Of a stretch of 64,000 nt of DNA, positions 39,247 to 63,341 are shown piece by piece. The DNA is from Crossaster papposus. Its lineage: Eukaryota; Echinodermata; Asteroidea; Velatida; Solasteridae. Every line of letters begins with the position of its first letter. Within the stretch, counting starts at the first letter, position 1. The DNA lies in assembly GCA_037893245.1 (NCBI GenBank), contig JBAIAA010000656.1:886001-950000 (forward strand), in the 5' to 3' direction. The notes beneath the pieces are model-generated. The model did no database searches. It saw only the letters and a program-made list of their open reading frames with translations, and was not told where the DNA came from. Both the position numbers and the translations under genes were made by a program.

Positions 39247-39435
39247 ATGCCAATGAACAAACAAGAAATGCGGATGGGACATAGCGAGGGACAAACGGAT
39301 GTCTGTTATGAGGAGACAGGGACTCGTATCTTGACATGCGGGAGTGACGGAGACGTCCGAATATGGAAGAGTATGGATGATGATGATCCTGAGTCTATTA
39401 GTGTCGGTGAAGCTGCATTCGCTATTGCAATCAAG
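39247..39435 (+). CDS. WDHD1: WDHD1 coding exon 1 (residues 1-63)
   Basis: Starts MPMNKQEMRMGHSEGQTDVC and contains the first blade motif CGSDGDVRIW, then a DDDD stretch. Donor AAG|GTATCT, phase 0. The first ATG after the acceptor is used because it gives the family's expected N-terminus. Confidence 0.92.
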
Positions 39436-45400: not shown

Positions 45401-48400
45401 TCTTATCTTAGTCAGGTCAAGATATGGTTTGACCCCAAAAAAATTGCAACAAAAGGTTTTTCAACGGTTTCTAGTAGTATTCGACCTCAGGAATAACATA
45501 CTAAAAGTCGACCAAAATTGAAGGTTCGGAAAGCTGTTATTTTCAAAATGGCGTCCAAGATGGCCGCCGATACATACAAATGACCATAAATCACTTATTA
45601 TCTATCATAGAAACATAATTTTGGTGTCTATCCCATGGTTTCGGGGGTCAGAGAATCCATTGAGACAAGTAAGAACGGTTTGTGATGGTCCAAGAAACCC
45701 CAAAATCCAAGATGGCGTCCAAAATGGCCGCCATAACATTAAAATGGCCATAAGTCACTTATTATCCATCCGAGAAACATAATTGGGGTGTCTATGCTAT
45801 GGTTTTCGGGGTCATAGAATCTATTAGGATAAGTTAGAACGTTAAACAGTGGCTTAGGAAACTACAAAATCCAATATGGCGTCCGAAGGGCCACAAAACC
45901 ACTACAATCTCTCAATAGAGGGCGCACTTTATACAAAGAAAATAAACTTATAATGTATCTCTCTCACCCGTATGGTGGCTACGACCCCCAAGGGGTCAAC
46001 TCAACTATTGGCAGGTCATTGTCGACACGGGGGGAGGGGAGAGTGACAAAGACAAAGTAACAACTTAAAAATAATATCTAGACACACATTCCAAATACCC
46101 ACCACATAATTAAAAATGTTTAAAACGTTGTGTTGTTCATGTCATCTAGCAAATACACATGCAGATATTCGTACCTTCATTTTGATGAGGAATGTAATTG
46201 AGTAAGGATAAATCATCACTCTTCTTCTGTTTCACTGTCAAGTGACTCGTTATATGGATTGTGGCATGTATCAAGTTGGCAAGGTCCACACACACTGTTA
46301 CATGGTAGTCCGTAACCTCTGCAGGTACAGCGAAGAGTGCTACAAGCAGTACAGCAGTTGCAATGAATCAACTTCAGAAGATTACTAGGTGCAGCCTCCA
46401 TATTCGACATCAGTGGAACCAGGTGATTGTCTTCTAATGTCCAGCCCCAGTCTGTGACGTTCATGTCTCCTTCGCTCTCCATCCATTCCATGACTTGGTA
46501 GTATGCTCTGAGGGAGTGGAATTTGGTTGAGGCTGGCGTAGGAGGGAGTCGCTCTGGAGTAACAAAGGATTTCGCATTGGAAATTTTCTTCACGAACAAC
46601 TTGTATCGTAATGATGCAAGTGAGTCATTACAGCTGCCACCAAACATGACAGACATTGCTTTGATACCAAGTTCCTCTATTCGTTCCTTTGGCTGACTTG
46701 GTAGAAGGAAAGTACTAGCACAGGATACCAAAGTGGGGTTGCCTTTCACAAGCTTCTGGAAGACTGATTTCTTTCCGATACCAAATATCCGGGAAGTCGA
46801 ATCGCAACCAGTGTAGGCATGCAGGAAAAGAAGTTGTGAGCATAGATCCTTACCCAGGTCCACTTTCAACTGCTTAATGTTGTACACCTTCAGAGCCTTG
46901 GTTGCATTGTCAGAGCGGAAGTATAGTTCCCTGCTATCTACATCTGCGTAATGCAAGAGTAACACCAATAGGTCAGTGTCTTCTCCAATCAGAGTAGTAG
47001 AATGACGACGAGAAGAATTCACTGCAGCTTTAGCAATATGTACATCTGCATCCCCGGGTGCATTGATGACGGTGCAATTACTCGTCCTCAGTTCCTCACT
47101 AATGAGATTTATGAGTCCCTGCTTATTGCAGTCTCTTGATAAAAACTCATCCTTCTTGCCTGAGAATACTGTGTCTGCATTGAATCTGACAACTGGATGG
47201 GCATTCTGCCCACGTCGCTGGTGTGTATTATCCTTAATTGACGGCCCTCCACCATAGCCGTCAAAAACTACAATTGCAGAACCATAGCGGCGGGTTGTGA
47301 AATCAGCATATGATCGTGCTATTGTGCCATAGCTGTCTCCTGTCTTCCATGGTATCCGATGCACCAAGGAACCACCATCAAGGACGTACTGTTCTGTGTT
47401 CGGTGGGCAGTCTTTCACGGCTTCACTCGACACTTTACTTGCATAATCGGTGATAGCGTGAGCTAGCTGGGGCTTATCAGCCTTCTGGAAGATATTCCTA
47501 GCCTCGAAAAGTGCAGGTGGGAACGGACTGAGCTCATAGCTCATCACCTCTTCTAGTTCAAGCTCCCCTGTTTTTGAAACTACCAGGAACCGCTGAAACA
47601 GCAAAGCAGCATCTATGGTTTGTTCAGGTGCAATTTTCACTTTCGATATCTCTCCCAAAGTCGTAGCTTTCTCTTTCCTTTTGAACGAGACTGTGAAAAC
47701 AGCATGTCCAATCATGTTTGCCATGATTTTCTTCCCAACTGACTCGTATTCATGTACATTCACTCCTGATGAAGCCACTACACCATTCACCACATTTCTC
47801 AACGAAGGATCTGGAGAAAATGGTGTGCAAGTTGCAAGCTTTTCGTTGATCTTTGACACGTCAGATGTGTCTCTCTTGATCCTTGCTTCACTTAAGTCCT
47901 TGTGCTGATCACTGGTGGTAAATGAGAGGTTTGTGAACTCTTGCATTGCACTGTTATACTCCGAGGTCACAGGCATAGACATGGTCCATAGTGAGCGTTG
48001 TTCCTCAGTCATGCCACTACCACGTGTCAAACCACCAGTAGCCTTTAGTGATCTCATCAAGGTCTGTTCTATTACAAGATCAGAGCTGAGGCCGGCCCAG
48101 ACCTTGTCGGTGCGACGAATTACATGGTATCCATCAGTGAAGTTTTTGTAGGTGTCAGGATGCTTGGTTTCAAGACCACTCATTTCTTGCACATAGAAAT
48201 GTGCAGACTTTAAGTAATTGAAATGCCCTGCCGCAGCAAAGATTGGTAAGCAATCAGCAACAGCACGTAGGTGCAATGACCAAGACCCTATGCGATCTGC
48301 GGTAATCAGCATTCTAGCAACTTGTATCATCTTCTGATAGTTTAGCCACAACTGACTGGTCTTAGACCTCCCTTGCAGTTCCTTCCTTTTCTTGTCAATT

Positions 48401-51400
48401 TCCTGTTTGATCGTGGCTATGAGATCAGATGTGTTCGTGCTCTCCAAAGTTCTTTCGCCTGCCAACACCTCAGAGTACATGTCCTCTGCCTGATCAACAA
48501 GCGATGCAAACTCGGGAGTCTCATCTCTCATGGCTGTTACAATAATGCCATTCAGACACTTGTCTACCAGCAGATGTCCACGGAATGCTCTTTGAACCGA
48601 CTTTCCTGTCATCATATGGGTTACAGCATTATCACCATAGACTGTTCCAAGGATTTCGCGAAGTCCAGTTCCTTCCATCAGGGTACCGATTGCCCCCAGC
48701 AAATTCATGAAGGTGTGAAAGCAACCTAAGCGCAAGACAATCCTTTTCAGTGGGCTATCCTGTGGTGCATCGATGATTAGCTCAGCGGCCTTCCAATATA
48801 GGGGCTGATCAAATGTTACGACTGGAGAAACGTGATGCTTTGTTGCCAAATTGCTAAGAAACTCCAACGTAGAAAGAATGCAGATCTTGTCCCCAGAATA
48901 CATGTCTATCATGGGCAGGAAAATCACAGAGGACTGACCAGGATGATCTTTCCCTCGATAAAAAGTGTGCATCATGCCCGGCCAGTTCGGAGTTTCCTGT
49001 CTGAAGCTGAATGCGAGCTCCCAAAGGATGTCAATTCTCATATCAAAGTCAGGAATCAGCTTTGGTAGGTCTTGATATTTCATACTGCGACATACATGCT
49101 TGGCAAAGCGTAGATCTATGATTTCAACTCTCGAATTATCTGTGATTTTCAAGTCTGAAGTATTTCGCCTCGTAATGATGCGGCTCACTTTTTTTGCTGG
49201 TGTCAAAGCAGCAACCATGCCCATTCCGTGAAATGTTCCTTTGCCGTCTATGGTAATGATGTTATGGTCAACATTGTCAGCAGCAAATAGAACTGTAGTG
49301 TCTTGTAGATCAACATTCTTACCCAGGATGTCTGGAGCAACACAACTAGCTGCATTTATTTCAAATCGTAGGACTTCACCATAGGAGGAACTAAAGCCCA
49401 TCTCATGCAGCGTATCTACAAGGAACTTTGAACGATGCAAATGATGTGTTTGTACACCGAGACCGATCTGCAATGGCACAATTGTAGCTCTTGGTCGAAC
49501 TGCCTGGATGATTGCCTGACCAATACTTGCAACTTTACGTCGGTTGTCTGTACCTACAAACAAGGAATCTAACAATAAATGAAGAGTTTCAGGAATGTAG
49601 GCGAGGGTTGAGTCGAGCTTGAGCATCTCAGAACTAGGGTACTGATCAGTCACTGAAGGCACATTAGTCTTGATGTCACTTTTGATGAGCCTTGCAGCTG
49701 TTTCAATGATAGCTCTTTTTTGGGATTCTTCATCACCCTCTTGATGTTTGAAGTATGACCTGAGTATCTCAGATGCCTTTTCTCTCATAGTCACAATGTC
49801 ATGCAGACCTTCACCTTCTGCAATATGAAGAGAGTTTCCATATCTGTCCTTCAATTTGCTTTTGAGGTACTGATTGCCATAGGGAAGTGAATCTTCATCC
49901 GTTAGAAACTCTTTCATCTTGTTACTGAGATCACAAATAGTAAGTTGTTCTTCGTCACGGGTCTCAAGATATGAGCACACTTTTGAGAATGCCTGCTCCA
50001 AATCCAGAGCTTTTGGTCTTCCAGATTTCTTCCGCTTGGATTCAGGCGCACTCTGGAACTTCAGTGGTACATCACGACTAGTCCGGAAATTGCGACTGCA
50101 TGAATGATGATACAAACAATCTGCAGCATGAAGATCGGATCCAAAGTACTCTATGCGACCTTTCACAGAGAAAGACCAATTGTCAGACCTATCATCACAT
50201 GATTCTAATATAGTCTTAACAAATGTATCAGTCTTAACATAACTGTAATCTGAACTCTCCAAAACAATACTATTCCCACAAAACAAGCAATCTGTTTTGC
50301 TGTTGAAGGGACCTAAAGACATTCGAGCACTTCTTTTTACTGAGTTGGATGGTCCACATTTCTGATTCATTTCACTTTTAAAGTTTCTTGGGTTGTTGTA
50401 GAATCTGCGGCATGAAATGTGCACTTTAGTGCCAGGTATGACGACAAGACTGTCACCTCTCTGAGCGCTTGCATGGTTGATGCCATCAGCACCTTTCTGT
50501 CTTATTTGGCAAACATCATCTTCATTGTCATAAGTTTTTGTGCAAATTGGGCAAATATCGCAGTTAACCTTGCTTGAACTCATTGTGAGACCTGCAGGTA
50601 GGAGATAAAGCCAGTTGCAATAGTTCACACATACAGTGCATTGAAGGAAATATAAAAGTCATCATGTTCAATGCTATTCTGCTCAGAGGATTTGTTGAAA
50701 CTGTTGTTCACAAATTATATGAAAACAGTTAGTCCAATAGCTCTCTGGTCCAAGTAATCTCTCTTCGTGGCATCCACAATAAAGGATGGGTGGAACATAT
50801 TTGGATGAGGGATTGGTTAATGTTTTCACTAAGAATTATATATATTAAGGGAAAGGAAGTGTTGAGAGTAGGGCGTAGGTTGAAGTTAGGATTGACACTT
50901 AATACCTAAATCCTCTCCTTCTTTCCTCTTATTGAAAGATAATCGGACCAGTGACCTGTGAGACCAACATTTGTGGGTACATTGTAATCAGGAAACTATA
51001 GCATAATCACATATATTTGTTTTAAATAATTGCAGTTTTTTTTCAATTTTACAAATTTGGGGAATATCTAATTGATTACTTTCATTCAATCAAATCCTAA
51101 AAACAACAGTATGGATATTTTTAGTAAATGGGGAAAGTCAACATATTCTTTACATATTCGTTTTTTTCCTAACAACATGCTCAGTACATCCTTTAACGAC
51201 ATCACCTCCTTGACATAACAACCATGTCAATAAAATATGTAGGCCTAACTTTATCGTTTAGTACTTAATGGAAAAAATGCCCCCCCCCCCCCCATCCACC
51301 AATTATATCACTTGCCTTGATATCTACGTCAGCTCTTTCTGTCGTACTTGTCTGATGTCTTTGTTTAAGTACCTGGGTTACAGTGAATCTACTTGAGTAA

Positions 51401-54400
51401 ATCTTCAAATCTAAAACAAATAACAAATATGCGACATTAAGAATAACTATAGTAATAATTGTTGCAAAGTTGCAGAGTTCCGAACAATGTTTCAAACATT
51501 ATCTAATCATTCTTATCCATTCAAACAAATTTTGGTAAAGAACACGCATGACTTAATCACATATACATGATTATACTTCAGAGAAGGTGAAAAGGATACT
51601 TACATGAACACGTTTACTTGTCCTTGTGATACATTTTACATGTAAATCAAATCTAAAGCTATAGTTCAAATCTAAAGAAATATGTAACAACAAAAAATAT
51701 GCTAATGAATGTTGAAAAAGAAACTTACATTACAGATGTTCCTTTGTCCTCGGTGTGTTATTCTACTTATGGAATGAAGAATTAAACAATGATTTCACTA
51801 GTGTGTAGTCTTCGTTATTGTCTTTCTCTTGCCTGAATTATTTCTCATACATTCCAATGCCTCTCATTAGGTTGACATATATTTGGGCACATTGTGTCAA
51901 ATATCTGAATAAATGATGATGCTGCTTCATGTACGTCGGTTGGTTGTTGCATCGATGATACATTTAACCTGTTACTTAGGTTATATGCTTCAATAGTACA
52001 AGAAAACTACATTTTGTCAGGGGGGAGGGGGGTGAGGCACCTTAAATTTGGGGGGTTTCCTAGGCCACCAATGAACATTTTAACTCATTTCAATGTATTT
52101 TCGCCCCGAAAACCATGAGATAGACACCAAAATTATGTCTCTAGGATGGATAATAAGTGATTTATGGCCATTTTTAGGTATCGGCGGCCATCTTGGACGC
52201 CATCTTGGATTTTAGGGGTTTCCTAGACCATCTACAAACATTCTAACTTGTCTAAATGGATTCTCTGACCCCCGAAACCATGGGATAGACACCAAAATTA
52301 TGTCTCTAGGATGGATAATAAGTGATTTATGGCCATTTTTAGGTATCGGCGGCCATCTTGGACGCCATCTTGAAAATAACGGCTTTCTGAAACTCCGATT
52401 TTGGTCGACTTTTAGTATGTTATTCCTGAGGTCGAATACTACTAGAAACCGTTGAAAAACCTTTTGTTGCAATTTTTTTGGGGTTGGGGTGTTTTTTACC
52501 GTATATTGACCTGACTATCTTGTCTCTTTCCAGCCTGTCAAAAACACTTTGTAGGTTGTCATGGAAACCACAGTCTGGTAAGGTGAGTTTCAGTGTCAAG
52601 ATGAAAATCTCTTTGGAACATATGTGTGCCCGAGGAAAAAGAGTAGCTAGACGATTGCTTTATAAAATATAATCGTATGTCCAAAAATGACATTTCAAGA
52701 AGTCTTTACAAAACAGTACATGTTGCATGTTTTTATAGATTGGTTTGGAAGGTTGTATTGGTTATTCTGAGTCCATACTTTATGTTAATGCGAAGTGAAT
52801 TTCATGATGTCATCAATTTAATTATTATTATTTTTGATTAATAAATACCTAGGAGAGTTGATGGCTTCTGATTGGTCGAGACTCGATCACATGGATCACA
52901 TTATTTTGTAGTAATTGCTCGGCTTTCAGGAAGAAGCGAATAAATGTCCCCTGAACCAGCATTAATCAAGCATCATGTAAGCCAATGATTGGCCGAATGC
53001 AACAGTCCTACGGTAACTTGTAACAAGGACGCGTCAAATCTTGATACTGCGCGCTATAAATGTATGCGTAGAACGTTTGTATCTATATGCGCAGCATTTT
53101 TCTAAATGCACGTGTCGTCTGTTAACGCTAGCGCGTTGCTATGCACGGTGGGCATCAGTAGTCAGCTAGTCTTGTCTCAAAGTATGGGTAATAATAACAC
53201 ATATTGAAGAAACAGGGTACCATGCATAAGCGCCGAAAAAAAAGTCAAGAAATTTGGAGCAATTTCACAATTTTTCTTGTTAAAAAAGTATTTATTAAAG
53301 GGATCAGTGCGAGGACCCGGTCATTACTGCGTGATAATGACCGGGTTGGGGGATGACCGCTGGTAATGGACCTCGCCAAGGATTCCTCAAGGATCCCCTA
53401 GGCACTGTAGCTCGTAAACCTGTGACAGTGAGAAGAATTTACAGTCTATAGAGGTGGGAGGAAAACCCCAAAAGAATATTCTGGCGAAACCCATGAAATA
53501 AGGCAGAGACTGAAAAGCCACGGAATCGTGCAGGGACTGAAAACCCAATTCACATATTGGCCCAGGCAGGATTGGAAATCAGGTCACAGCAGTGGAAGGC
53601 GAGGAACCCCTACGCCAACCTGACTCCTAGGCAGGAATCCAACCCGGGTCAGTGGTGGAAGGCGAGGAAAGAACCACTACGCCAACCTGACTCCTAGGCA
53701 GGAATCCAACCCGGGTCAGTGGTGGAAGGCGAGGAAAGAACCACTACGCCAACCTGACTCCTAGGCAGGAATCCAACCCGGGTCACAGTGGTGAAAGGCG
53801 AGGAACCGCTACGCCAACCCGACTCCTAGGCAGGAATCCAACCCGGGTCACAGTGGTGGAAGGCGAGGAAAGAACCACTACGCCAACCTGACTCCTTGGC
53901 AGGAATCGAACCAATGACTGGGCTAAATCTGCTGCTGGGTGCAGGCTACATGCAGTGAATAGCCATTGTCTGTCGATGGAATAGAATTCTGTGTTCTGGT
54001 ATCGGCTTCACTGGACATGGGGGAATTAGGTTGGCGTAGCGGTTCTTTCCTCGCCTTCCACCGCTGAGACTCTGGTTCGAATCCCTCCTGGGCCAATATG
54101 TAGATTGGGTTTTCAGTCCCTGCCGGACTCTGTGGCTTTCTTCAGGATATTCTTCTGGGGTTTTCCTCCCACCTCTAAAACTGTACCTTCTTCTCATTGT
54201 CTTCTCTCTACAGGTTTCTTCGGGCTTACGAGCTACAGTGCCTATAGGGCGCCTTTGAGGGATTCTTAGTTTCATTACCAGAAAGAATTAATAATAATAA
54301 TAATAACTTGTTTCTTTTTTTCATGTCAGTTCCTGGCCGTTCCCATAGAAAAAGAAATCCAACTATATGAGCGAGATTCCTGGGATGTAGCCTTCACATT

Positions 54401-57400
54401 GACACCTCCAGACGTTGGTGGTTTTATCTCGGTTACTACCTGGTCACCTTGTGGTCAGTTCCTGGCTTCAGGTAACACTGATGGACATATCTGTATATGG
54501 GATGTCAACACCAGAGAGTGCATAGACAGGTAAGCATATGTTGACATTTATGTTTTGTCTGAATGAAGTTCAGAGACTATGCAAATCACTCTTTCTGTAC
54601 GTAGTCTGTCCGTAGTTCATCCGTAGTCAGTCCGTCTGTATGTGTCGTCATTTTGGTTAGTTTAGACAAAATCTAAATAAACTTGAGTCATGGATGCAAT
54701 ATTGTAAACTTCACAAGGTCATTTGAGGTCAAGTTGTAAATCAGGCTGGAATTGTAAAATTTGTCTCAGTTGAAAACCAATTGCAATAAATCTTGGTCAA
54801 ACGTGCAATATAAAAACTTGCATGTGATGGTAATGTTGAAGGTTACACATTGAGGTTAAAGGTTATATGAGGTCAAGTTGTAAGGTGGTCGCGAAAATAG
54901 ACGAGACACGTGGTTCAGGAATACATCCTTGCATAGTTTGTGAAGTGTATCAAGGTATTTGCCAATTGTCTTGGAACTAAATGGTCAAGTATGAATGCCC
55001 ACAAATTTATAAATGAGTCAGTACTAAGTAGCCAATCACAAGTTATAATTTCAAAAATTTGATATTGCGGAAGATGTATCTGGGTAAATTTCACTTTAGT
55101 CCAATTAGGCAGAGATATGCTTGCGTTCTCAAGACAGCAGTTGGTATTTCAGATATCTCTATTGTTTCTTTCAGAACCAAACACAACAAAGGGCTATCCA
55201 TATGTGGCATGGCTTGGCATCCTGCCAATGGGAACGAGATTGTGTATACTGACGTCATGGGGCAAGTGGGTGTGCTAGATAATGTGATACCTCATGACAG
55301 GAAAACTACAAAACAGGTAACCCGACCATAACTCATAATGCCATGGCCCAAAGGTTACGATGTTGGACTCATGTACCATGGTGCGCAAGTTTGAACCCCG
55401 CCAGGAACATGGTGTTTGTTTTGTTGGCCAAGATACTGAACTACAATTACCTCTATCTACCGAGGTTGGTTACATTGGCAACATTAAGTCTTCCCTGTGT
55501 TTCCAGTTGTGTTGATTTTACCAACAGTCTGTCAAGTATCATGCCAGCACCCAACTGGACTGTTTTCATGACCAACAGAGATTTCTACAAAAGCAAATCG
55601 ACACTCAAAGTTTTCCCACCCATTCTTGCAACCTACACACATGTACGCATGTATACAGTATACACATGTACCACACACAGACGTGTTTTACACAACGACC
55701 AAGGATCCCCTGTTGTTTACCTTTGTTCCTGTTCTGTAACCTAACTCAATTCACTTATCGTACACATTACTGACAGAGAAAAATTGAACAAAAGACGAAC
55801 GCTACAGGACTGAAAGGATCTGTTGTTTGTCTATTGTGCTTTTGTCCTTAGGCTTAGGGGGGGGGGGGGGGGACCCGAACCGTGCCTGTACCTCGAACTG
55901 GAAAGCATGGAGGTGTATCGGTTTTTTGGGCACCCCATGCTAACACCGCCATACTTGACGTCGATTACTTCTGTAATCGACGTCATATTTCTGTCATTTC
56001 TTAACCAGGTTCCAATCTTCAAGCAAACTTCATGAGAGTCTCCTCTCTGTATAGTTCTTAGATGCTCGTATTCCTGTCTAATCTTAACCAAGTTGTAATC
56101 TTCAAGCAAACTTCACGAGTCACATCTCTGTAGTTCTAATAATTAGATGCTTGTATTCCTGTCATTTCTCAACCAGGTTCCAATCTTCAAGCAAACTTCA
56201 TGAGAGTCATATCTCTGTATATTTCCTAGATGCTTGTATTCTTGTCATTTCTCCATCAGGTTGCAGTCTCCAAGCAGTCTGCTGATTTGTTTGATGATGA
56301 TGCAGTTGATGAAGATTTTCTTGATGCTGTCACTCAAGCAGAAGTTGAGAACGTTGGGAGTAAATCGACCAATGAGGGAGAGGACGTTGATGACATCATA
56401 CCTACGACGCAACATACACGCATCATGCAGATACAAGACGATGACAATTCAAATGGTAAAAAAATCTAACTTTTTGCATACATATGGAGTCAATTGTATA
56501 ATTGTAGTTATAATTCACTTCCTACTATTAAGGTCAAAACACAAAACACTTCCTCAGATTTGTTAAGGTGTCTAGCACAGCAACTACATCTCCACATCAG
56601 GAGGTTGTGGGTTCGATTCTCACCCGAGTCGGTGATTTTTTTCAAAAGAATCCCTCGGGACAACACTGAGTTTGCAGTGTACACTTTGGTGAAGGGAAAC
56701 AATCTAGTTTTATATTCACATCTTCCGATGCAAATTCCATGTATGAAATAAATCTCCAGAATTACTGACATGCAGCATGGAATAATTCAAATTGGAGTAT
56801 AAAACACAAAGGTTGGGTCTCAAAACATCAGCTAAAAGTTACAGATAACAATGAGCTGATATAATACACATAATGTAGCTTGCAGGTTAATAATAAGCAC
56901 TGTCAATATATTGATATTACTCAATTATTTGATATTATTTAAGGCCGTGCCGGGTACCCGGGTACCCGTAACCCGACCGCTGATTGCGGGTACCCGGCTC
57001 CAATTTATTAATTTTATTACCCGAAACTGCCTTTGTAAATGTTGACACGTTATTTCAGAAAGGCAAGCGTCTTTTATATTCATTGCGTGCGATAAATTGT
57101 TAGAAAACATCTGAGTAAAACGTCTTTACCGACAATTTCCCGATGTCTAGATAGCAGCCTAACGGATGATTGAGCTTTCTTTGTAGTCATTGTGATAAAA
57201 AAATGCCTTTGAAGTCTATTTACCGACAATTCTGACAGCTGCTATGACTTGCGGCTGACATTGTATCAGTGTTTTGTTACAGTTGTCCTTTGAGTAAGTT
57301 TTTCCGAGGTTTACTTTTTGGAAAATGTGCTGAATAACGGACCATACCTGGAATGTGGTTTTGAAACCTGATACTGCAGGAGAGGTATTTGGTTCTATTG

Positions 57401-60400
57401 TATCAACTCTGCGACCAGCCGGGCAGATCTGCGGTCGGCTTTTTTGCTACATTTCGTGTCGGCTCACTCAAAGGATTTAGTTCATTGAACCTTATTTATT
57501 TTGGAAAAAGACGTGCCACTGTAGACGTGCAATTATGGGGAGCGGCAAGTCAATTTATTTACAAACATTTATTACAAGCTGAGAGTAAACTCCACGCAAT
57601 ACGGGATCGCTGTTGACAATCTGGCTCTGAAAACCGCGCACTTAACTTATCTTGTTTTTTTTTTTCACTGGACCGCCAGACTACTTAGAAAAGGGTTTTG
57701 ACTAGACTGCCGCTGTTTTGAGTGACCATAATTTGTTTGCGTCGAACCCGGAGTTGCAAAGTAGGCCCGTGCATTTGTTTAGTTGCAGAATGCAATGGAA
57801 GTAAGCACGCCATGCCAGTGCGGCAGTCGCGCGGCAGTCGCGCGGCAGTCGCGCGGCAGTCGCGCGGCAGTCGCGCGGCAGTTGCGCGGCAGTCGCGCGG
57901 CAGTCGCGCGGCAGTCGCGCGGCAGTCGCGCGGCAGTCGCGCGGCAGTCGCGCGGCAGCTTGCTAGTGGAGTGAGCGGGGATGTACATGCACGTGCCGAC
58001 GCAGTGTATACTTCCGGGTTTTTGTTATGATTCTAATAATAGTCACGGGTACCTGGGTACCCGACCGTGACAGGAATAGGGTACCCGGGTCCCGTACTAC
58101 CCGTAAACGCACACCCTTAATATTATTTTGATATCGATATTGCCGATAGCAATTTTGTAACCATATCAAAATATCGAAGATTTCGATATTGAGAAATGAT
58201 ATAAAACAAAATCATCTGTTGCTTTGATTGGAATTTGTGGTCTCTCTTAATGAAAAACCTTTGGAAATCTAATATATTGATTACTGTATTGCAAATTATA
58301 ATATCGACGATGCTTAGTTAATAGAATCATCTGTATTAGTAATATAGATGCTTCTTGTCCTTAATACTTCCAGCTGGAAGACTCAACCGACATCTTTGTA
58401 AATACGTGTAAGAAGTTCAAGAATGATTGGATGGATTATATTTTTTAGTGAACTTTCTGATAAATTCATTGCTGTTTTTTTTTCCTTAGATGGTAGTTGT
58501 CGTGCCGGTGATGATGGTGCAAGTATCATGTCTGGTGTCACTGATGCCGTGGTACCTCAACAGACTAATTATCAAGGACCTCAACCTACACCCCTACAGA
58601 AACCGTTCATTTCTGCTGCTACCCCAGTACACCTGTCTAGTAGATTCATGGTAAGAGGTTATTCTCCCACTACATCTGTCCAGTAGATTCATGGTAAGAG
58701 GTTATTCTCCCAGTACACCTGTCCAGTAGATTCATGGTAAGAGGTTATTCTCCCAGTACACCTGTCCAGTAGATTCATGGTAAGAGGTTATTGTCCCAGT
58801 ACACCTGTCCAGTAGATTCATGGTAAGAGGTTATTCTCCCAGTACACCTGTCCAGTAGATTCATGGTAAGAGGTTATTATTCCAGTACACCTGTCCAGTA
58901 GATTCATGGTAAGAGGTTATTCTCCCAGTACACCTGTCCAGTAGATTCATGGTAAGAGGTTATTCTCCCAGTACACCTGTCCAGTAGATTCATGGTAAGA
59001 GGTTATTCTCCCAGTACACCTGTCCAGTAGATTCATGGTAAGAGGTTATTGTCCCAGTACACCTGTCCAGTAGATTCATGGTAAGAGGTTATTCTCCCAG
59101 TACACCTGTCCAGTAGATTCATGGTAAGAGGTTATTATTCCAGTACACCTGTCCAGTAGATTCATGGTAAGAGGTTATTGTCCCAGTACACCTGTCCAGT
59201 AGATTCATGGTAAGATGTTATTCTCCCAGTACACCTGTCCAGTAGATTCAAGGTAAGAGGTTATTCTCCCAGTACACCTGTCCAGTAGATTCATGGTAAG
59301 AGGTTATTCTCCCAGTACACCTGTCCAGTAGATTCATGGTAAGAGGTTATTCTCCGAGTACACCTGTCTAGTAGATTCATGGTAAGAGGTTATTGTCCCA
59401 GTACACCTGTCCAGTAGATTCATGGTAAGAGGTTATTGTCCCAGTACACCTGTCCAGTAGATTCATGGTAAGAGGTTATTCTCCCAGTACACCTGTCCAG
59501 TAGATTCATGGTAAGAGGTTATTCTCCCAGTACACCTGTCCAGTAGATTCATGGTAAGAGGTTATTCTCCCAGTACACCTGTCCAGTAGATTCATGGTAA
59601 GAGGTTATTGTCCCAGTACACCTGTCCAGTAGATTCATGGTAAGAGGTTATTATTCCAGTACACCTGTCCAGTAGATTCATGGTTAGAGGTTATTCTCCC
59701 AGTACACCTGTCCAGTAGATTCATGGTAAGAGGTTATTCTCCCAGTACACCTGTCCAGTAGATTCATGGTAAGAGGTTATTCTCCCAGTACACCTGTCCA
59801 GTAGATTCATGGTAAGAGGTTATTCTCCCAGTACACCTGTCCAGTAGATTCATGGTAAGAGGTTATTCTCCCAGTACACCTGTCCAGTAGATTCATGGTA
59901 AGAGGTTATTCTCCCAGTACACCTGTCCAGTAGATTCATGGTTAGAGGTTATTCTCCCAGTACACCTGTCCAGTAGATTCATGGTAAGAGGTTATTCTCC
60001 CAGTACACCTGTCCAGTAGATTCATGGTAAGTGGTTATTGTCCCAGTACACCTGTCCAGTAGATTCATGGTAAGAGGTTATTCTCCCAGTACACCTGTCC
60101 AGTAGATTCATGGTAAGTGGTTATTGTCCCAGTACACCTGTCCAGTAGATTCATGGTAAGAGGTTATTCTCCCAGTACACCTGTCCAGTAGATTCATGGT
60201 AAGAGGTTATTCTCCCAGTACACCTGTCCAGTAGATTCATGGTTAGAGGTTATTCTCCCAGTACACCTGTCCAGTAGATTCAAGGTAAGAGGTTATTCTC
60301 CCAGTACACCTGTCCAGTAGATTCATGGTAAGAGGTTATTCTCCCAGTACACCTGTCCAGTAGATTCATGGTAAGTGGTTATTGTCCCAGTACACCTGTC

Positions 60401-63341
60401 CAGTAGATTCATGGTAAGTGGTTATTGTCCCAGTACACCTGTCCAGTAGATTCATGGTTAGAGGTTATTCTCCCAGTACACATGTCCGGTAGATTCATGG
60501 TAAGAGGTTATTGTCCCAGTACACCTGTCCAGTAGATTCATGGTAAGAGGTTATTGTCCCAGTACACCTGTCCAGTAGATTCATGGTAAGTGGTTATTGT
60601 CCCAGTACACCTGTCCAGTAGATTCATGGTAACAGGTTATTATCCCAGTACACCTGTCCAGTAGATTCATGGTAAGAGGTTATTCTCCCAGTACACCTGT
60701 CCAGTAGATTCATGGTTAGAGGTTATTCTCCCAGTACACCTGTCCAGTAGATTCAAGGTAAGAGGTTATTCTCCCAGTACACCTGTCCAGTAGATTCATG
60801 GTAAGAGGTTATTATCCCAGTACACCTGTCCAGTAGATTCATGGTAAGAGGTTATTCTCCCAGTACACCTGTCCAGTAGATTCATGGTTAGAGGTTATTC
60901 TCCCAGTACACCTGTCCAGTAGATTCAAGGTAAGAGGTTATTCTCCCAGTACACCTGTCCAGTAGATTCATGGTAAGAGGTTATTCTCCCAGTACACCTG
61001 TCCAGTAGATTCATGGTTAGAGGTTATTCTCCCAGTACACCTGTCCAGTAGATTCATGGTAAGAGGTTATTCTCCCAGTACACCTGTCCAGTAGATTCAT
61101 GGTAAGAGGTTATTGTCCCAGTACACCTGTCCAGTAGATTCATGGTTAGAGGTTATTGTCCCAGTACACCTGTCCAGTAGATTCATGGTAAGAGGTTATT
61201 GTCCCAGTACACCTGTCCAGTAGATTCATGGTAAGAGGTTATTCTCCCAGTACACCTGTCCAGTAGATTCATGGTTAGAGGTTATTCTCCCAGTACACCT
61301 GTCCAGTAGATTCATGGTAAGAGGTTATTCTCCCTGTACACCTGTCCAGTAGATTCATGGTAAGAGGTTATTGTCCCAGTACACCTGTCCAGTAGATTCA
61401 TGGTAAGAGGTTATTGTCCCAGTACACCTGTCCAGTAGATTCATGGTAAGAGGTTATTCTCCCAGTACACCTGTCTAGTAGATTCATGGTTAGAGGTTAT
61501 TCTCCCAGTACACCTGTCCAGTAGATTCATGGTAAGTGGTTATTGTCCCAGTACACCTGTCCAGTAGATTCATGGTAAGAGGTTATTCTCCCAGTACACC
61601 TGTCCAGTAGATTCATGGTTAGAGGTTATTCTCCCAGTACACCTGTCCAGTAGATTCATGGTTAGAGGTTATTCTCCCAGTACACCTGTCCAGTAGATTC
61701 ATGGTAAGTGGTTATTGTCCCAGTACACCTGTCCAGTAGATTCATGGTAAGAGGTTATTGTCCCAGTACACCTGTCCAGTAGATTCATGGTAAGAGGTTA
61801 TTCTCCCAGTACACCTGTCCAGTAGATTCATGGTTAGAGGTTATTCTCCCAGTACACCTGTCCAGTAGATTCATGGTTAGAGGTTATTCTCCCAGTACAC
61901 CTGTCCAGTAGATTCATGGTAAGTGGTTATTGTCCCAGTACACCTGTCCAGTAGATTCATGGTAAGAGGTTATTGTCCCAGTACACCTGTCCAGTAGATT
62001 CATGGTAAGAGGTTATTGTCCCAGTACACCTGTCCAGTAGATTCATGGTAAGTGGTTATTGTCCCAGTACACCTGTCCAGTAGATTCATGGTAACAGGTT
62101 ATTATCCCAGTACACCTGTCCAGTAGATTCATGGTAAGAGGTTATTGTCCCAGTACACCTGTCCAGTAGATTCATGGTAAGATGTTATTATCCCAGTACA
62201 CCTGTCCAGTAGATTCATGGTAAGTGGTTATTGTCCCAGTACACCTGTCCAGTAGATTCATGGTAACAGGTTATTATCCCAGTACACCTGTCCAGTAGAT
62301 TCATGGTAAGAGGTTATTCTCCCAGTACACCTGTCCAGTAGATTCATGGTAAGAGGTTATTCTCCCAGTACACCTGTCCAGTAGATTCATGGTTAGAGGT
62401 TATTCTCCCACTACATCTGTCCAGTAGATTCATGGTAACAGGTTATTGTCCCAATACAGGGTTCTTTTCAGCGTGACTTGCAAATATTTGCATACACGTA
62501 TAGGTTTCACCGCGTACAATTGTCCCCGGCCCTGTGTAGTTTCACTACTGACCTCTACACATGCTTTAGATTTTATGGCGTGTAGTAAATGACTTGATAT
62601 AACGCACTGAATGCAGAGAGAACAAAATGCCATAGACGGCAGAATGTTGTAAATAACATGTAAATAACGGTGCTAAATTTAAATCTGACATGCTTTCTGT
62701 TATCAAAGGCTGGGTATTTTTTAGGTCATAGCTCAAATAAAAAGGCAGTTTAAGCTTTAAATTCAGTCCTGAACACATATAAACAGTGCCGTCTTGTGAA
62801 ATAAATGAATGCTGATTGTCACATGCTGACACCAGAGGTGACAGCCATTGGCAAAATTGTGCCTGTTCAGGAGTCATGGAAATAACAGAATTACATATTC
62901 CTTACTACTTTTACTTTCTGATTTATACTATTTATTTAAAATACGTGTAGTTCATGTAAGCATATAAAAGATTACAAATTTCAATAAATCTGAAAGTCAA
63001 AAAAGAAATCTTCCCACTGGGTTTTGCATTTGTTGTGCTACCACCTGTTTCAAGTTTTGTCTCTTCTTTTTAGATTGCCTCGCATGTTTGTTTGCTGGAA
63101 AACTTATGATAGCCCTAAGCTACCATTTGCCGCAATTTTTGTTTTCTGAATTACAGAAGTGGAATTCCATTGGAATCGTCCGTTGCTATGACACTGAAGA
63201 TGAATCTTCTATTGATGTTGAATTCCATGACACGTCCGTTCATCATGCCATCCATTTTGACAACCAGCTGAATCGCACAATGGCAGATCTCTCAAGTGAA
63301 GCTGTGCTGTTAGGAAGCGAGTCCGATGGAGATGTATCGAG
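39247..63341 (+). CDS. WDHD1: WDHD1/AND-1 (Ctf4 family), 5' ten coding exons, partial
   Basis: AND-1/Ctf4 is a trimeric replisome hub that ties the CMG helicase to DNA polymerase alpha-primase in the nucleus. Exons 39247-39435, 40431-40582, 42680-42788, 44771-44868, 52534-52582, 54330-54529, 55175-55316, 56260-56455, 58490-58650 and 63157-63341 all have GT-AG borders and matching phases. They join to 493 codons plus 2 nt without a stop. Residues 1-313 form the N-terminal WD40 propeller (CGSDGDVRIW, ASSSCDGTLKIW, TTWSPCGQFLASGNTDGHIC are blade signatures). Residues 314-410 are an acidic linker. From about 415 the SepB-like middle domain begins (KWNSIGIVRCY, VEFHDTSVHHA). Order and content follow vertebrate WDHD1 closely. 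The remaining middle domain and the C-terminal HMG box lie past the right edge. Intron 4 carries a nested antisense transposon; introns 7-9 carry splice-site duplications. Confidence 0.94.
39505..40037 (+). repeat. 17-bp minisatellite in WDHD1 intron 1
   Basis: About 30 copies of CCCTATGTTCCCCCGGT, near-perfect at 39640-39830 and degenerate towards both ends (CCGATCCCTATGTTCCT variants). Because 17 is not a multiple of 3, all three plus frames give Pro/Tyr/Ser-rich open frames; these are not genes. Confidence 0.93.
40431..40582 (+). CDS. WDHD1: WDHD1 coding exon 2 (residues 64-114)
   Basis: Acceptor TTTGTCAACAG, donor CAG|GTAAAC, phase 2. Encodes NNRLYTASEANTIQAHTFPE and PDGIVTRFTSPVTHF, the strongly conserved second blade of the family. 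Confidence 0.92.
40685..40864. mobile_element. Near-perfect palindromic MITE in intron 2
   Basis: AACGTGAGGATTTTAGATAA at the left and its inverse at the right. The whole 180 bp forms one long hairpin through the CACCCGTATTATTGGC arms and GACGTGGCGTCCTTC inner arms, with a loop near 40770-40785. No coding content. Confidence 0.8.
41125..41503. mobile_element. Non-autonomous TIR element in intron 2
   Basis: TGTGATGCGATCAAGCAAAA at the left is inverted at the right (41478-41503) over about 28 bp. The centre is AT-rich. Target duplication unclear; family unknown. Confidence 0.65.
42031..42610 (+). repeat. About 0.58-kb interspersed repeat, copy A (intron 2)
   Basis: Begins with a palindromic end (GACCCGGTTATTACTGCGTG / ATAATGACCGGGT) and ends near CTCCTAGGTATTTATTAAT. 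The body reappears inverted at 52840-53225, with the palindromic end at 53304-53372. Together they look like two copies of one element family in opposite orientations, 10.8 kb apart. Confidence 0.75.
42680..42788 (+). CDS. WDHD1: WDHD1 coding exon 3 (residues 114-150)
   Basis: Acceptor TTTGTTTTAG, donor ATT|GTAAGA, phase 0. Encodes SDFTMKYVDIEG and FHGHNAPILSVAIDPQNEYI, a GH dipeptide blade start. Confidence 0.92.
43222..44056. mobile_element. hAT-like foldback element with 8-bp target duplication (intron 3)
   Basis: CTTGGCGG (43222-43229) and CTTAGCGG (44049-44056) flank 819 bp. The ends are inverted copies TAAGCT(T/A)GGGCGGTTCC. Inside, GGTTCCG/GGACCCG-rich arms and a perfect central palindrome (43612-43674, centred on GATCCTAGGATC) make a foldback structure. 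Eight-bp duplications and the GGGCGG-type end fit hAT. It interrupts a dispersed repeat whose uninterrupted relative is at 35690-35835. No transposase. Confidence 0.75.
44268..44287 (+). repeat. Short interstitial TTAGGG tract
   Basis: Three TAGGGT units in a row in intron 3; similar two-unit tracts occur at 35690 and 43149 on the other strand as part of a dispersed repeat. Too short to be a telomeric remnant. Confidence 0.6.
44771..44868 (+). CDS. WDHD1: WDHD1 coding exon 4 (residues 151-183)
   Basis: Acceptor TTTTTTTATCTAG, donor CAG|GTAGGT, phase 2. Encodes ASSSCDGTLKIWSIADQSWE and KCSDV. Its downstream intron (44869-52533) houses the 7.1-kb transposon. Confidence 0.92.
44881..45405. other. 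Intron 4 upstream of the transposon, nothing recognised
   Basis: Host intron sequence with no repeat or gene I can identify; a 109-codon antisense frame has no family features. Confidence 0.5.
45409..45890 (+). repeat. Left terminal inverted repeat of the transposon
   Basis: Inverse of 52025-52517 with scattered differences and a 15-20 bp indel near the tip. Carries repeated AAGATGGCGTCC/AAGATGGCCGCC words (about 45545, 45709, 45871) and the paired TCCATCCGAGAAACATAATT-type subrepeat. Confidence 0.85.
46216..50628 (-). CDS. Academ-like transposase with XPG/FEN1-like nuclease region, intact 1470-codon ORF
   Basis: Probably cuts and moves the surrounding element in the nucleus. One unbroken frame. 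The real start is probably codon 16 (ATG at 50583): it directly precedes MSSSKVNCDICPIC, and CTCCTACCTGCAG|G just upstream reads as a splice acceptor of a leader exon. Residues 24-85 and 110-185 hold CxxC/H-type zinc-binding clusters (CDICPIC, CLFCG, CLYHHSC). About 1115-1300 resembles the PIN/XPG fold: VVFDGYGGGPSIKD (N-type Asp box), APGDADVHIAKAA and GEDTDLLVLLLHY (I-type acidic boxes), YTGCDSTSRIFGIGKKSVF (third Asp and helix-hairpin-helix-like turn). Residues 1421-1455 form a dense Cys cluster (CNCC..C....CTC.....C...CGPC). Family assignment is from motif pattern, not a search. Intact frame implies recent activity. Confidence 0.72.
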   Translation of the reverse strand: MNYCNWLYLLPAGLTMSSSKVNCDICPICTKTYDNEDDVCQIRQKGADGINHASAQRGDSLVVIPGTKVHISCRRFYNNPRNFKSEMNQKCGPSNSVKRSARMSLGPFNSKTDCLFCGNSIVLESSDYSYVKTDTFVKTILESCDDRSDNWSFSVKGRIEYFGSDLHAADCLYHHSCSRNFRTSRDVPLKFQSAPESKRKKSGRPKALDLEQAFSKVCSYLETRDEEQLTICDLSNKMKEFLTDEDSLPYGNQYLKSKLKDRYGNSLHIAEGEGLHDIVTMREKASEILRSYFKHQEGDEESQKRAIIETAARLIKSDIKTNVPSVTDQYPSSEMLKLDSTLAYIPETLHLLLDSLFVGTDNRRKVASIGQAIIQAVRPRATIVPLQIGLGVQTHHLHRSKFLVDTLHEMGFSSSYGEVLRFEINAASCVAPDILGKNVDLQDTTVLFAADNVDHNIITIDGKGTFHGMGMVAALTPAKKVSRIITRRNTSDLKITDNSRVEIIDLRFAKHVCRSMKYQDLPKLIPDFDMRIDILWELAFSFRQETPNWPGMMHTFYRGKDHPGQSSVIFLPMIDMYSGDKICILSTLEFLSNLATKHHVSPVVTFDQPLYWKAAELIIDAPQDSPLKRIVLRLGCFHTFMNLLGAIGTLMEGTGLREILGTVYGDNAVTHMMTGKSVQRAFRGHLLVDKCLNGIIVTAMRDETPEFASLVDQAEDMYSEVLAGERTLESTNTSDLIATIKQEIDKKRKELQGRSKTSQLWLNYQKMIQVARMLITADRIGSWSLHLRAVADCLPIFAAAGHFNYLKSAHFYVQEMSGLETKHPDTYKNFTDGYHVIRRTDKVWAGLSSDLVIEQTLMRSLKATGGLTRGSGMTEEQRSLWTMSMPVTSEYNSAMQEFTNLSFTTSDQHKDLSEARIKRDTSDVSKINEKLATCTPFSPDPSLRNVVNGVVASSGVNVHEYESVGKKIMANMIGHAVFTVSFKRKEKATTLGEISKVKIAPEQTIDAALLFQRFLVVSKTGELELEEVMSYELSPFPPALFEARNIFQKADKPQLAHAITDYASKVSSEAVKDCPPNTEQYVLDGGSLVHRIPWKTGDSYGTIARSYADFTTRRYGSAIVVFDGYGGGPSIKDNTHQRRGQNAHPVVRFNADTVFSGKKDEFLSRDCNKQGLINLISEELRTSNCTVINAPGDADVHIAKAAVNSSRRHSTTLIGEDTDLLVLLLHYADVDSRELYFRSDNATKALKVYNIKQLKVDLGKDLCSQLLFLHAYTGCDSTSRIFGIGKKSVFQKLVKGNPTLVSCASTFLLPSQPKERIEELGIKAMSVMFGGSCNDSLASLRYKLFVKKISNAKSFVTPERLPPTPASTKFHSLRAYYQVMEWMESEGDMNVTDWGWTLEDNHLVPLMSNMEAAPSNLLKLIHCNCCTACSTLRCTCRGYGLPCNSVCGPCQLDTCHNPYNESLDSETEEE
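50629..52024 (-). other. Transposon 5' region (leader and promoter of the transposase)
   Basis: Between the ORF and the right terminal repeat. AT-rich with a poly-C run at 51281-51293. Likely contains a noncoding leader exon and intron for the transposase; no further gene seen. Confidence 0.5.
52025..52517 (-). repeat. Right terminal inverted repeat of the transposon
   Basis: Two copies of a subrepeat of about 170 bp (GGACGCCATCTTG at 52194 and about 52364), then the tip reading outward to TTGACCTGACTA. The tip contains CTGAC, a good branch-point match, with its A at 52514, 20 nt before exon 5. Confidence 0.85.
52534..52582 (+). CDS. WDHD1: WDHD1 coding exon 5, 49-nt small exon (residues 183-199)
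   Basis: Joins exon 4 in phase 2 to give SLSKTLCRLSWKPQSGK, matching the conserved CRLAWQPKSGK region of the family. Donor AAG|GTGAGT. Only 16 bp of host intron (TCTTGTCTCTTTCCAG) separates the acceptor border from the transposon end. Confidence 0.9.
52840..53372 (-). repeat. About 0.55-kb interspersed repeat, copy B (intron 5), inverted relative to 42031-42610
   Basis: Shares, in inverse, CTCCTAGGTATTTATTAA, GCGCGCAGTATCAAGATTTG and CAACGCGCTAGCGTTAACAG words with copy A. The palindromic end is at 53304-53372. A stretch near 53225-53300 differs from copy A. Confidence 0.75.
53376..53935 (-). mobile_element. tRNA-derived SINE with tandemly multiplied tRNA-like heads (intron 5)
   Basis: Read on the minus strand: five or six tRNA-like head copies spaced 65-67 bp (B-box positions about 53907, 53840, 53775, 53708, 53641 and a diverged one near 53570), then one SINE body to about 53376. 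Heads carry TGGCGTAGTGG (A box) and GGTTGGATTCC or GGTTCGATTCC (B box). Same family as 54029-54306. Confidence 0.8.
54029..54306 (+). mobile_element. tRNA-derived SINE with (AAT)n tail (intron 5)
   Basis: A box TGGCGTAGCGG (54032-54042) and B box GGTTCGAATCC (54074-54084) in a tRNA-like head, a body of about 180 bp (GGGTTTTCAGTCCCTGCCGG onward), and an AAT tail. It ends about 23 bp before exon 6, so it abuts that exon's polypyrimidine tract. The antisense ORF of 109 codons here is a SINE artefact. Confidence 0.85.
54330..54529 (+). CDS. WDHD1: WDHD1 coding exon 6 (residues 200-266)
   Basis: Acceptor TTTTTTTCATGTCAG, donor CAG|GTAAGC, phase 2. Encodes FLAVPIEKEIQLYERDSWDV, then SVTTWSPCGQFLASGNTDGH and ICIWDVNTRECIDR, a textbook WD blade. 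A SINE tail ends about 23 bp upstream. Confidence 0.93.
54530..55174. other. WDHD1 intron 6, simple diverged repeats only
   Basis: 54600-54640 has CGTAGTC-type short repeats; 54720-54900 repeats the phrase GAGGTCAAGTTGTAA. No gene or element identified. Confidence 0.5.
55175..55316 (+). CDS. WDHD1: WDHD1 coding exon 7 (residues 266-313)
   Basis: Acceptor TTGTTTCTTTCAG, donor CAG|GTAACC, phase 0. Encodes GLSICGMAWHPANGNEIVYT and GQVGVLDNVI, the last blade of the propeller. Confidence 0.92.
55317..55980. other. WDHD1 intron 7, 5' part
   Basis: Includes a tRNA-like B box phrase near 55390-55405 (GTTTGAACCCC), a poly-G run at 55857-55872 and a perfect inverted repeat TGACGTCGATTAC/GTAATCGACGTCA at 55957-55986. 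No gene seen. Confidence 0.5.
55982..56277 (+). repeat. 84-bp tandem repeat: four copies of the exon 8 acceptor region
   Basis: Copies of TCATTTCTCAACCAG|GTTCCAATCTTCAAGCA place AG|G junctions at 56009, 56093, 56177 and the real exon start 56260 (spacings 84, 84, 83). The real copy reads GTTGCAGTCTCCAAGCAG. Copies 1 and 3 keep an AG-G acceptor; copy 2 has AAG|TT. Using any upstream copy meets an in-frame stop within 9 codons. Confidence 0.88.
56260..56455 (+). CDS. WDHD1: WDHD1 coding exon 8, acidic linker (residues 314-379)
   Basis: Acceptor CATTTCTCCATCAG, donor ATG|GTAAAA, phase 1. Encodes VAVSKQSADLFDDDAVDEDF and a Glu/Asp-rich stretch ending QDDDNSNG, matching the acidic linker of WDHD1. 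The acceptor region is the last of four 84-bp tandem copies. Confidence 0.9.
56941..58119. mobile_element. hAT-like element with TATTATTT target duplication (intron 8)
   Basis: ATATTATTT flanks both sides (56932-56940, 58120-58128). The ends are related inverted sequences (AAGGCCGTGCCGGGTACCCG left; AAGGGTGTGCG then GGGACCCGGGTACCC on the inverse right). The 1179-bp interior has no transposase frame, so it is non-autonomous. It contains an internal 11-bp minisatellite. Confidence 0.65.
57818..57959 (+). repeat. 11-bp GC-rich minisatellite, 13 copies
   Basis: CGGCAGTCGCG repeats with an exact 11-bp period from 57821 to 57953, with one GTTGCG variant. Every unit has GCGCG, so the tract is very CpG-dense. 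The Arg/Gly/Ser-rich open frames on both strands are by-products. Confidence 0.92.
58490..58650 (+). CDS. WDHD1: WDHD1 coding exon 9 (residues 379-432)
   Basis: Acceptor TTTTTTTCCTTAG, donor ATG|GTAAGA, phase 0. Encodes QGPQPTPLQKPFISAATPVH then LSSRFM, the conserved entry into the SepB-like domain. Its last 29 bp plus the donor are the seed of the 89-copy minisatellite that follows. Confidence 0.92.
58622..62455 (+). repeat. 43-bp minisatellite of 89 copies, each containing the exon 9 donor site
   Basis: The unit CCAGTACACCTGTCCAGTAG ATTCATG|GTAAGAGGTTATTCTC starts in the last 29 bp of exon 9 and includes its 5' splice site. The first (authentic) GT is at 58651 and the last at 62435; 3784 bp is exactly 88 x 43. 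Variants include GTTAGA, GTAACA, and ten GTAAGT copies (about 60029, 60115, 60372, 60415, 60587, 61532, 61704, 61920, 62048, 62221), the last linked to TTATTGTCCC. The second and last copies share CACTACATCTG. Confidence 0.96.
62456..63156. other. WDHD1 intron 9, 3' part, nothing recognised
   Basis: Unique AT-rich sequence between the minisatellite and exon 10. Short antisense frames have no family features. Confidence 0.5.
63157..63341 (+). CDS. WDHD1: WDHD1 coding exon 10 (residues 433-494)
   Basis: Acceptor TCTGAATTACAG, donor GAG|GTGAGA, phase 2. Encodes KWNSIGIVRCYDTEDESSID, VEFHDTSVHHAIHFDNQLN and ADLSSEAVLLGSESDGD of the SepB-like domain. The next exon lies beyond the window. Confidence 0.92.

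Follow-up and report, generated by a model that had tools for sequence, protein, structure and literature searches.

The 5′ splice site of exon 9 in WDHD1 (AND-1/Ctf4) opens a tandem array of 89 units of 43 bp, each with a GT donor of its own. The array is very probably a mirage-type minisatellite, that is, the product of neutral duplication across the exon end, in which the decoy donors are tolerated and the exon-proximal donor is used. Mirages are minisatellites across exon–intron boundaries, described in amphioxus for Adh3, the globins BflGb6 and BflGb9, and troponin C, and reported there to leave splicing undisturbed (PMC3087553; PMC3902484). The array lies in the window, a 64,000-nt stretch of contig C656 (positions 886001-950000), within a gene that spans C656:925247-986797. 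Six further junction-crossing arrays are present in the same gene, a setting that the preliminary description of this DNA missed.

The host gene is intact. It has 22 exons and 1117 codons with no internal stop, as the host of a mirage should have. Exons were placed with a human WDHD1 sequence as guide, except that exons 19 and 20, to which the human query gave no match, were placed solely by reading frame and splice signals. Spliced together, exons 1-18 encode a product of 897 residues that matches the Pfam families PF24817, PF12341, and PF20946, which are the first WD40 domain of WDHD1, Mcl1_mid, and Ctf4_C. Exons 6-10 match WDHD1 chains in the PDB, the best being 6xty (E 7.9e-78), and this match takes in the amino acids that the repeat unit encodes. 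A 382-aa WDHD1 query against the assembly gave 13 matches, all on C656, corresponding to one gene copy; instability in length, between alleles and somatically, is a further trait of mirages. When the exon 9 end and exon 10 were used together as a protein query, three short unnamed fragments were returned.

Several repeats in the gene and the window lie away from splice junctions or differ in kind. A 17-bp minisatellite with 32 copies occupies window 39507-40037 in intron 1, about 70 bp past the exon, and does not cross the junction. Two tandem pairs of 164/165 bp (window 45544-45884 and 52052-52372), by eye apparently inverted relative to each other, flank about 6 kb of intron 4 and may be the two ends of a DNA transposon. 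Intron 19 contains two copies of one stretch, separated by about 10 kb, whose translated frames are identical (C656 ~971140-972100 and 981190-982150). The first half of the window (1-32591) is a tandem array of a 141-bp unit with a tRNA gene, 231 copies of which are in the window, and TRF extends it upstream to C656:879146, through sequence in which some letters are N. In its first 2 kb, 12 of 13 genes read as tRNA-Gly(GCC) and one as tRNA-Asp. An Rfam search of window 32000-64000 found tRNAs only.

Table 1. Gene parts and tandem arrays in and around WDHD1, in window coordinates unless a contig is named.
Feature	Position	Strand	Description
WDHD1 coding exons 1-9	39247..58650	+	frame-joined splice sites, human protein as guide
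WDHD1 exons 1-3	39247-39435, 40431-40582, 42680-42788	+	
WDHD1 exons 4-6	44771-44868, 52534-52582, 54330-54529	+	
WDHD1 exons 7-9	55175-55316, 56260-56455, 58490-58650	+	
WDHD1 exon 10	63157..63341	+	genuine acceptor directly before
Exon 9 array, unit 1	58623..58665	+	28 nt of exon 9 end, genuine donor GTAAGA at 58651, 15 nt of intron
Exon 9 array, 88 later 43-bp units	58666..62449	+	intronic, one decoy GT donor each
Exon 9 array, partial last unit	62450..62458	+	CCCAATACA, 9 bp, counted by TRF
Exon 8 acceptor array	55986-56276	+	83 bp x 3.5; genuine copy last
Exon 9 donor array	58623-62458	+	43 bp x 89.2
Exon 13 donor array			123 bp x 30.9
Exon 15 acceptor array			161 bp x 4.7
Exon 18 acceptor array			189 bp x 2.4
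Exon 20 donor array			92 bp x 9.5
Exon 22 acceptor array			108 bp x 2.5
Second array of the 43-bp unit	C657:100725-101362 (L009 4726-5363)	-	14 full units and a partial one

The exon 9 array was called by TRF with a period of 43, 96% matches, and 0% indels. Read in register, positions 58623-62449 hold 89 full units, all of exactly 43 bp. As in a mirage, the unit consists of an exon end and the adjacent intron with the splice site, here 28 exonic and 15 intronic nucleotides. Thirty-one units are identical to the 43-bp consensus, 35 differ from it at one position, 20 at two, two at three, and one at four. Hence 86 of the 89 units have at most two differences, as in a homogenised minisatellite-like tandem array, and the 89 units amount to 20 distinct sequences. 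With 89 near-identical units, a statistical test for the reality of the array was deemed unnecessary. Within the array, the search for higher-order repeats gave a best lag that is not significant (p=0.235). Units 2 and 89 have two variants in common that are absent from all other units, as if the ends of the array had escaped homogenisation. The partial unit at the far end is a 9-bp near-match to the unit start, and this near-match may be a trace of the original microhomology.

The exonic part of the unit is genuine protein-coding sequence. Across the junction of exons 9 and 10, ATPVHLSSRFM|KWNSIGI aligns to STPLHLTHRFM|VWNSIGI of the WDHD1 chain 6xty. Since this part of the unit is real, conserved WDHD1 coding sequence, the array derives from exon 9 and not the reverse. 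The preliminary description had taken the repeat for a minisatellite grown from an exon–intron junction, and the units do start inside exon 9 and cross its donor. It had also counted 88 extra copies without net indel, which both TRF and the in-register reading reproduce. Eight coding exons lie upstream on the exon map, in agreement with its numbering of exon 9, and the alignment bears out its statement that the unit holds the conserved coding end of this exon.

The GT dinucleotide is kept in all 89 donors. Five donor 9-mers occur: ATGGTAAGA (ATG/GTAAGA) in 56 units, ATGGTTAGA (ATG/GTTAGA) in 15, ATGGTAAGT (ATG/GTAAGT) in 10, and AAGGTAAGA (AAG/GTAAGA) and ATGGTAACA (ATG/GTAACA) in four each; GTAAGA or GTAAGT is thus present in 70 of the 89 units. 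Donor strength was scored as the number of matches to CAGGTAAGT, of which the genuine exon 9 donor has six out of nine. By this measure 14 units outscore the genuine donor, 19 fall below it, and 56 have its score, a group that contains the genuine donor itself. Computed pairing energies with the 5′ end of U1 are -8.8 kcal/mol for GTAAGT and -9.5 for AAG/GTAAGA, compared with -8.0 for the genuine type, and the two weak donor types reach -4.1 and -5.0 kcal/mol. The ten GTAAGT copies thus pair better with U1 than the genuine type, as had been noticed before. The donor positions are not conserved in excess within the array: four of the nine donor columns vary versus 10 of the 34 others (Fisher p=0.44). 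Because the donor columns of the extra units vary like the other columns, no selection is seen to keep the decoys, and they are therefore read as tolerated passengers.

Reading of the frame distinguishes the first donor from the rest. Donors 2 to 89 all lead in frame to one TAG that starts 34 nt past exon 9. This stop sits in the second unit, its last base 8 nt before the GT of the second donor, which is where the preliminary description had placed it for use of any later donor. By the same frame reading, stops also follow when exon 9 is skipped or when an array microexon of 23 nt or 10 nt is used. The claim that only the first site is productive holds for the frame, as donor 1 is the only one of the 89 predicted to leave it open.

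We then inspected the remaining tandem repeats of the gene. The WDHD1 span contains 17 TRF arrays with a period of at least 30 once overlapping calls are removed. An array was regarded as junction-crossing if it starts or ends inside an exon and crosses its splice site. Seven of the 17 are of this kind, three at donors and four at acceptors, as listed in Table 1. Random placement of the arrays gives an expectation of 1.58 (p=0.0007), and when the given exon 9 array is left out, six of 16 cross a junction versus 1.47 expected (p=0.0024). For exons 1-18, the fraction is 5/11 at a period of at least 30 (p=0.004; 4/10 without the exon 9 array, p=0.0145), and it is weaker at a period of at least 10, with 5/16 (p=0.010; 4/15 without that array, p=0.042). 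This enrichment covers one gene, which was picked because of its exon 9 array. The acceptor of exon 21 has, by eye, a degenerate two-copy duplication that is outside the count of seven. The exon 13 array contains 31 donors, including the genuine one, all of which are GTRAGT, and its 30 spacings are all 123 bp. The genuine copy is the first unit in the donor arrays and the last unit in the acceptor arrays, an arrangement that the open frame requires. The donor arrays have 89.2, 30.9, and 9.5 copies and the acceptor arrays 4.7, 3.5, 2.5, and 2.4, a difference that is suggestive only (exact two-sided p=0.057 for three versus four arrays in WDHD1 alone).

The mitochondrial contig C1841 indicates the kind of genome that hosts these arrays. 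Its COX1 has TGA inside the frame. Compared by eye with mammalian COX1 in the PDB, the ten AAA codons of this gene fall on Asn (7), Lys (2), and Glu (1), and the 24 ATA codons fall on Ile (16), Val (4), Leu (2), and Met (2). We take this codon usage to be that of the echinoderm code (translation table 9). Downstream of COX1 come ND4L and then COX2, and ND1 lies upstream on the opposite strand, according to the frames and confirmed by Pfam. Ahead of COX1 are tRNA-Leu, tRNA-Tyr, and tRNA-Leu on the minus strand and tRNA-Gln on the plus strand. This is presumably the echinoderm gene order, most like that of sea stars. Judged from this contig, the WDHD1 arrays sit in an echinoderm-type genome, not in that of an amphioxus. 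Their host is not a cephalochordate as it is for the known mirages, a difference that concerns the host group and not the structure.

Arrays elsewhere in the assembly were approached through other genes. A PF00133 profile search of contigs gave 29 rows, seven of which were left out as they are on contig C8, a bacterial-type contig whose COX1 and tRNA synthetase frames are long and lack introns and which belongs to a symbiont or a contaminant. Among the 22 matches on four contigs, each part of the profile is hit no more than once, save for small overlaps between neighbours, and there are no tandem exon copies; a search of this type would miss short exonic repeats or arrays with little exon per unit, and the copies of WDHD1 exon 15 are visible to it. 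On C154, TRF calls no array in a 3-kb stretch that holds six AARS1 exon matches. On C657, an RCC1-repeat gene shows an exon end and donor in five copies, 115-117 bp apart, to which we give little weight because the stretch sits among gene fragments. This gene may or may not be NEK9, as its NEK9 matches are weak and its best PDB matches are UVR8 and HERC. The minus strand of C657:96000-105999 (L009) is a collage of gene pieces within 10 kb, comprising RCC1-repeat exons, a 43-bp array, an AARS1 piece, a reverse transcriptase frame, and a DPM2-like exon.

The 43-bp array in this collage is the second array of the exon 9 unit, and seven of its 14 full units are of types missing from the window array. 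It adjoins a truncated AARS1 copy that is 92-93% identical to AARS1 on C154 and frame-shifted relative to it. The C657 copy starts inside an exon, and the C154 gene retains the upstream exons. We considered and rejected a location of this array at the AARS acceptor: the intact exon on C154 starts further upstream, and the C657 copy is cut within the exon, which means that the array does not lie at a splice site of AARS1. As the copy is broken within an exon, DNA of the array or of one of its alleles was apparently joined to a broken gene copy elsewhere.

We propose that a local tandem duplication covering the last part of exon 9 together with its donor founded the array, perhaps via the 9-bp near-repeat CCCA(G/A)TACA at both ends, and that repeat turnover would then have enlarged it to 89 copies. 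Splicing would go on from donor 1, the exon-proximal one, because no other of the 89 is predicted to join exons 9 and 10 in frame and because recognition presumably concerns the exon as a whole. With this donor in use, the duplication would be tolerated and the extra donors would be passengers; the most reasonable inference is that exon definition ignores them. The same process would have struck the six other junctions of WDHD1. The duplication mechanism, the use of donor 1, and neutrality are in this way inferred from sequence. A broader reading, which we regard as unlikely though worth stating, is that tandem duplication in this echinoderm lineage is biased to exon–intron junctions and that the resulting arrays are asymmetric, large at donors and small at acceptors. 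Donor arrays would grow large since the genuine donor, transcribed first, prevails, and acceptor arrays would stay small since all extra copies come ahead of the genuine acceptor. If this is true, WDHD1 is a natural experiment in which first-come choice of splice sites is challenged by 118 decoy donors at two exons, and larger donor than acceptor arrays, if found genome-wide, would be a neat sign of such choice.

Functional accounts of the array agree less well with the data than neutral duplication with tolerated decoys. The preliminary description suggested regulated unproductive splicing, in which use of a later donor would lead to a stop and to decay of WDHD1 mRNA and so set its level. The single TAG reached from all 88 later donors fits this idea, as do the 14 donors that match U1 better than the genuine one and the stops reached through a 23-nt or 10-nt array microexon or through skipping of exon 9. 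There are also precedents, as human boundary repeats are described as affecting splicing (PMC2812944) and an intronic minisatellite of C. elegans is linked to alternative splicing (PMC4039745). However, intronic sequence free of selection is expected to contain stops, the same account would have to hold for the array of exon 13 and the others, and the decoy donors show no preferential conservation (p=0.44), with 19 of 89 weaker than the genuine one. The suggestion is thus not supported, and we consider it improbable. The same lack of excess conservation and the same 19 weaker donors speak against its other suggestion, that the array titrates U1 snRNP or serves as an RNA-level sink. A GT in every unit, GTAAGA or GTAAGT in 70 of them, and the further 31 GTRAGT donors of exon 13, genuine one included, would provide such a sink, but it is general knowledge that U1 is abundant, and the array is in the transcript of a single gene. 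We give titration a minimal probability.

The two structural alternatives are both very unlikely. Were the repeat a transposable or satellite element inserted at the junction instead of a local duplication, the second array on C657 with its 14 full units would be readily explained. Against insertion, the 28 exonic nucleotides of the unit encode conserved WDHD1 residues, and the unit was matched on C656 and C657 only, in a search that scores only its top candidates and passes over very frequent words. In addition, the C657 array, next to an AARS1 exon cut in its coding part, looks like a later transfer. Long tandem arrays are generally prone to assembly error, and the exon 9 array might be an artefact of this kind. 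Yet its units differ, with 20 distinct sequences among them, the frame of the gene is intact across it, and a query with the flanking exon is matched in full at one place only.

Taken as a mirage-type minisatellite, the WDHD1 array adds an echinoderm-type genome to a phenomenon known from amphioxus and, in milder form, from human duplicated genes. Its copy number is far above that of known cases for which numbers are at hand, and seven junctions of one conserved replication gene are affected. Exon 9 contributes 88 and exon 13 contributes 30 extra donors, 118 in total. As many of these equal or exceed the genuine donors, WDHD1 offers a direct test of 5′ splice site choice. It bears on how an exon settles on one 5′ splice site when near-identical decoys are present, and on whether duplications of 5′ and 3′ sites are tolerated unequally.

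Among the matches listed in the open literature, a scope outside which most subscription papers lie, we found no junction-spanning repeats in an echinoderm. The tandem repeats of the amphioxus huntingtin gene are described in a text whose relevant part does not mention junctions (PMC2206037). We rejected the view that junction-spanning repeats are confined to amphioxus, as minisatellites at exon–intron boundaries are reported in human segmental duplications, with 27 intron modifications, and can generate novel introns and alternative splicing patterns (PMC2812944). These internal tandem repeats share with WDHD1 their position at exon–intron boundaries of genes; they differ in having units of 30 bp on average in four copies and in being often polymorphic (PMC2812944). 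The potato RdRp case likewise ties a tandem genomic duplication to splicing structure, but an intron was gained there, and in WDHD1 the extra units are inside an existing intron and the open frame takes in no new exon (PMC4974935). In lancelet PGBD5, repeats of 60 and 108 bp overlap splice sites, and as in WDHD1 both 5′ and 3′ sites carry tandem repeats; unlike those of WDHD1, they are imperfect and have few copies, the 108-bp one being a triplication (PMC3902484). The closest likeness is to the amphioxus mirages, whose tandem units likewise combine an exon end with its splice site and occur at both donors and acceptors. In the globin mirage the boundary units are excluded from homogenisation (PMC3087553), which resembles the variants shared by WDHD1 units 2 and 89. 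The BflGb6 mirage has six and three copies in two haplotypes, compared with up to 89 in WDHD1, where an echinoderm-type genome carries seven such arrays in one gene.
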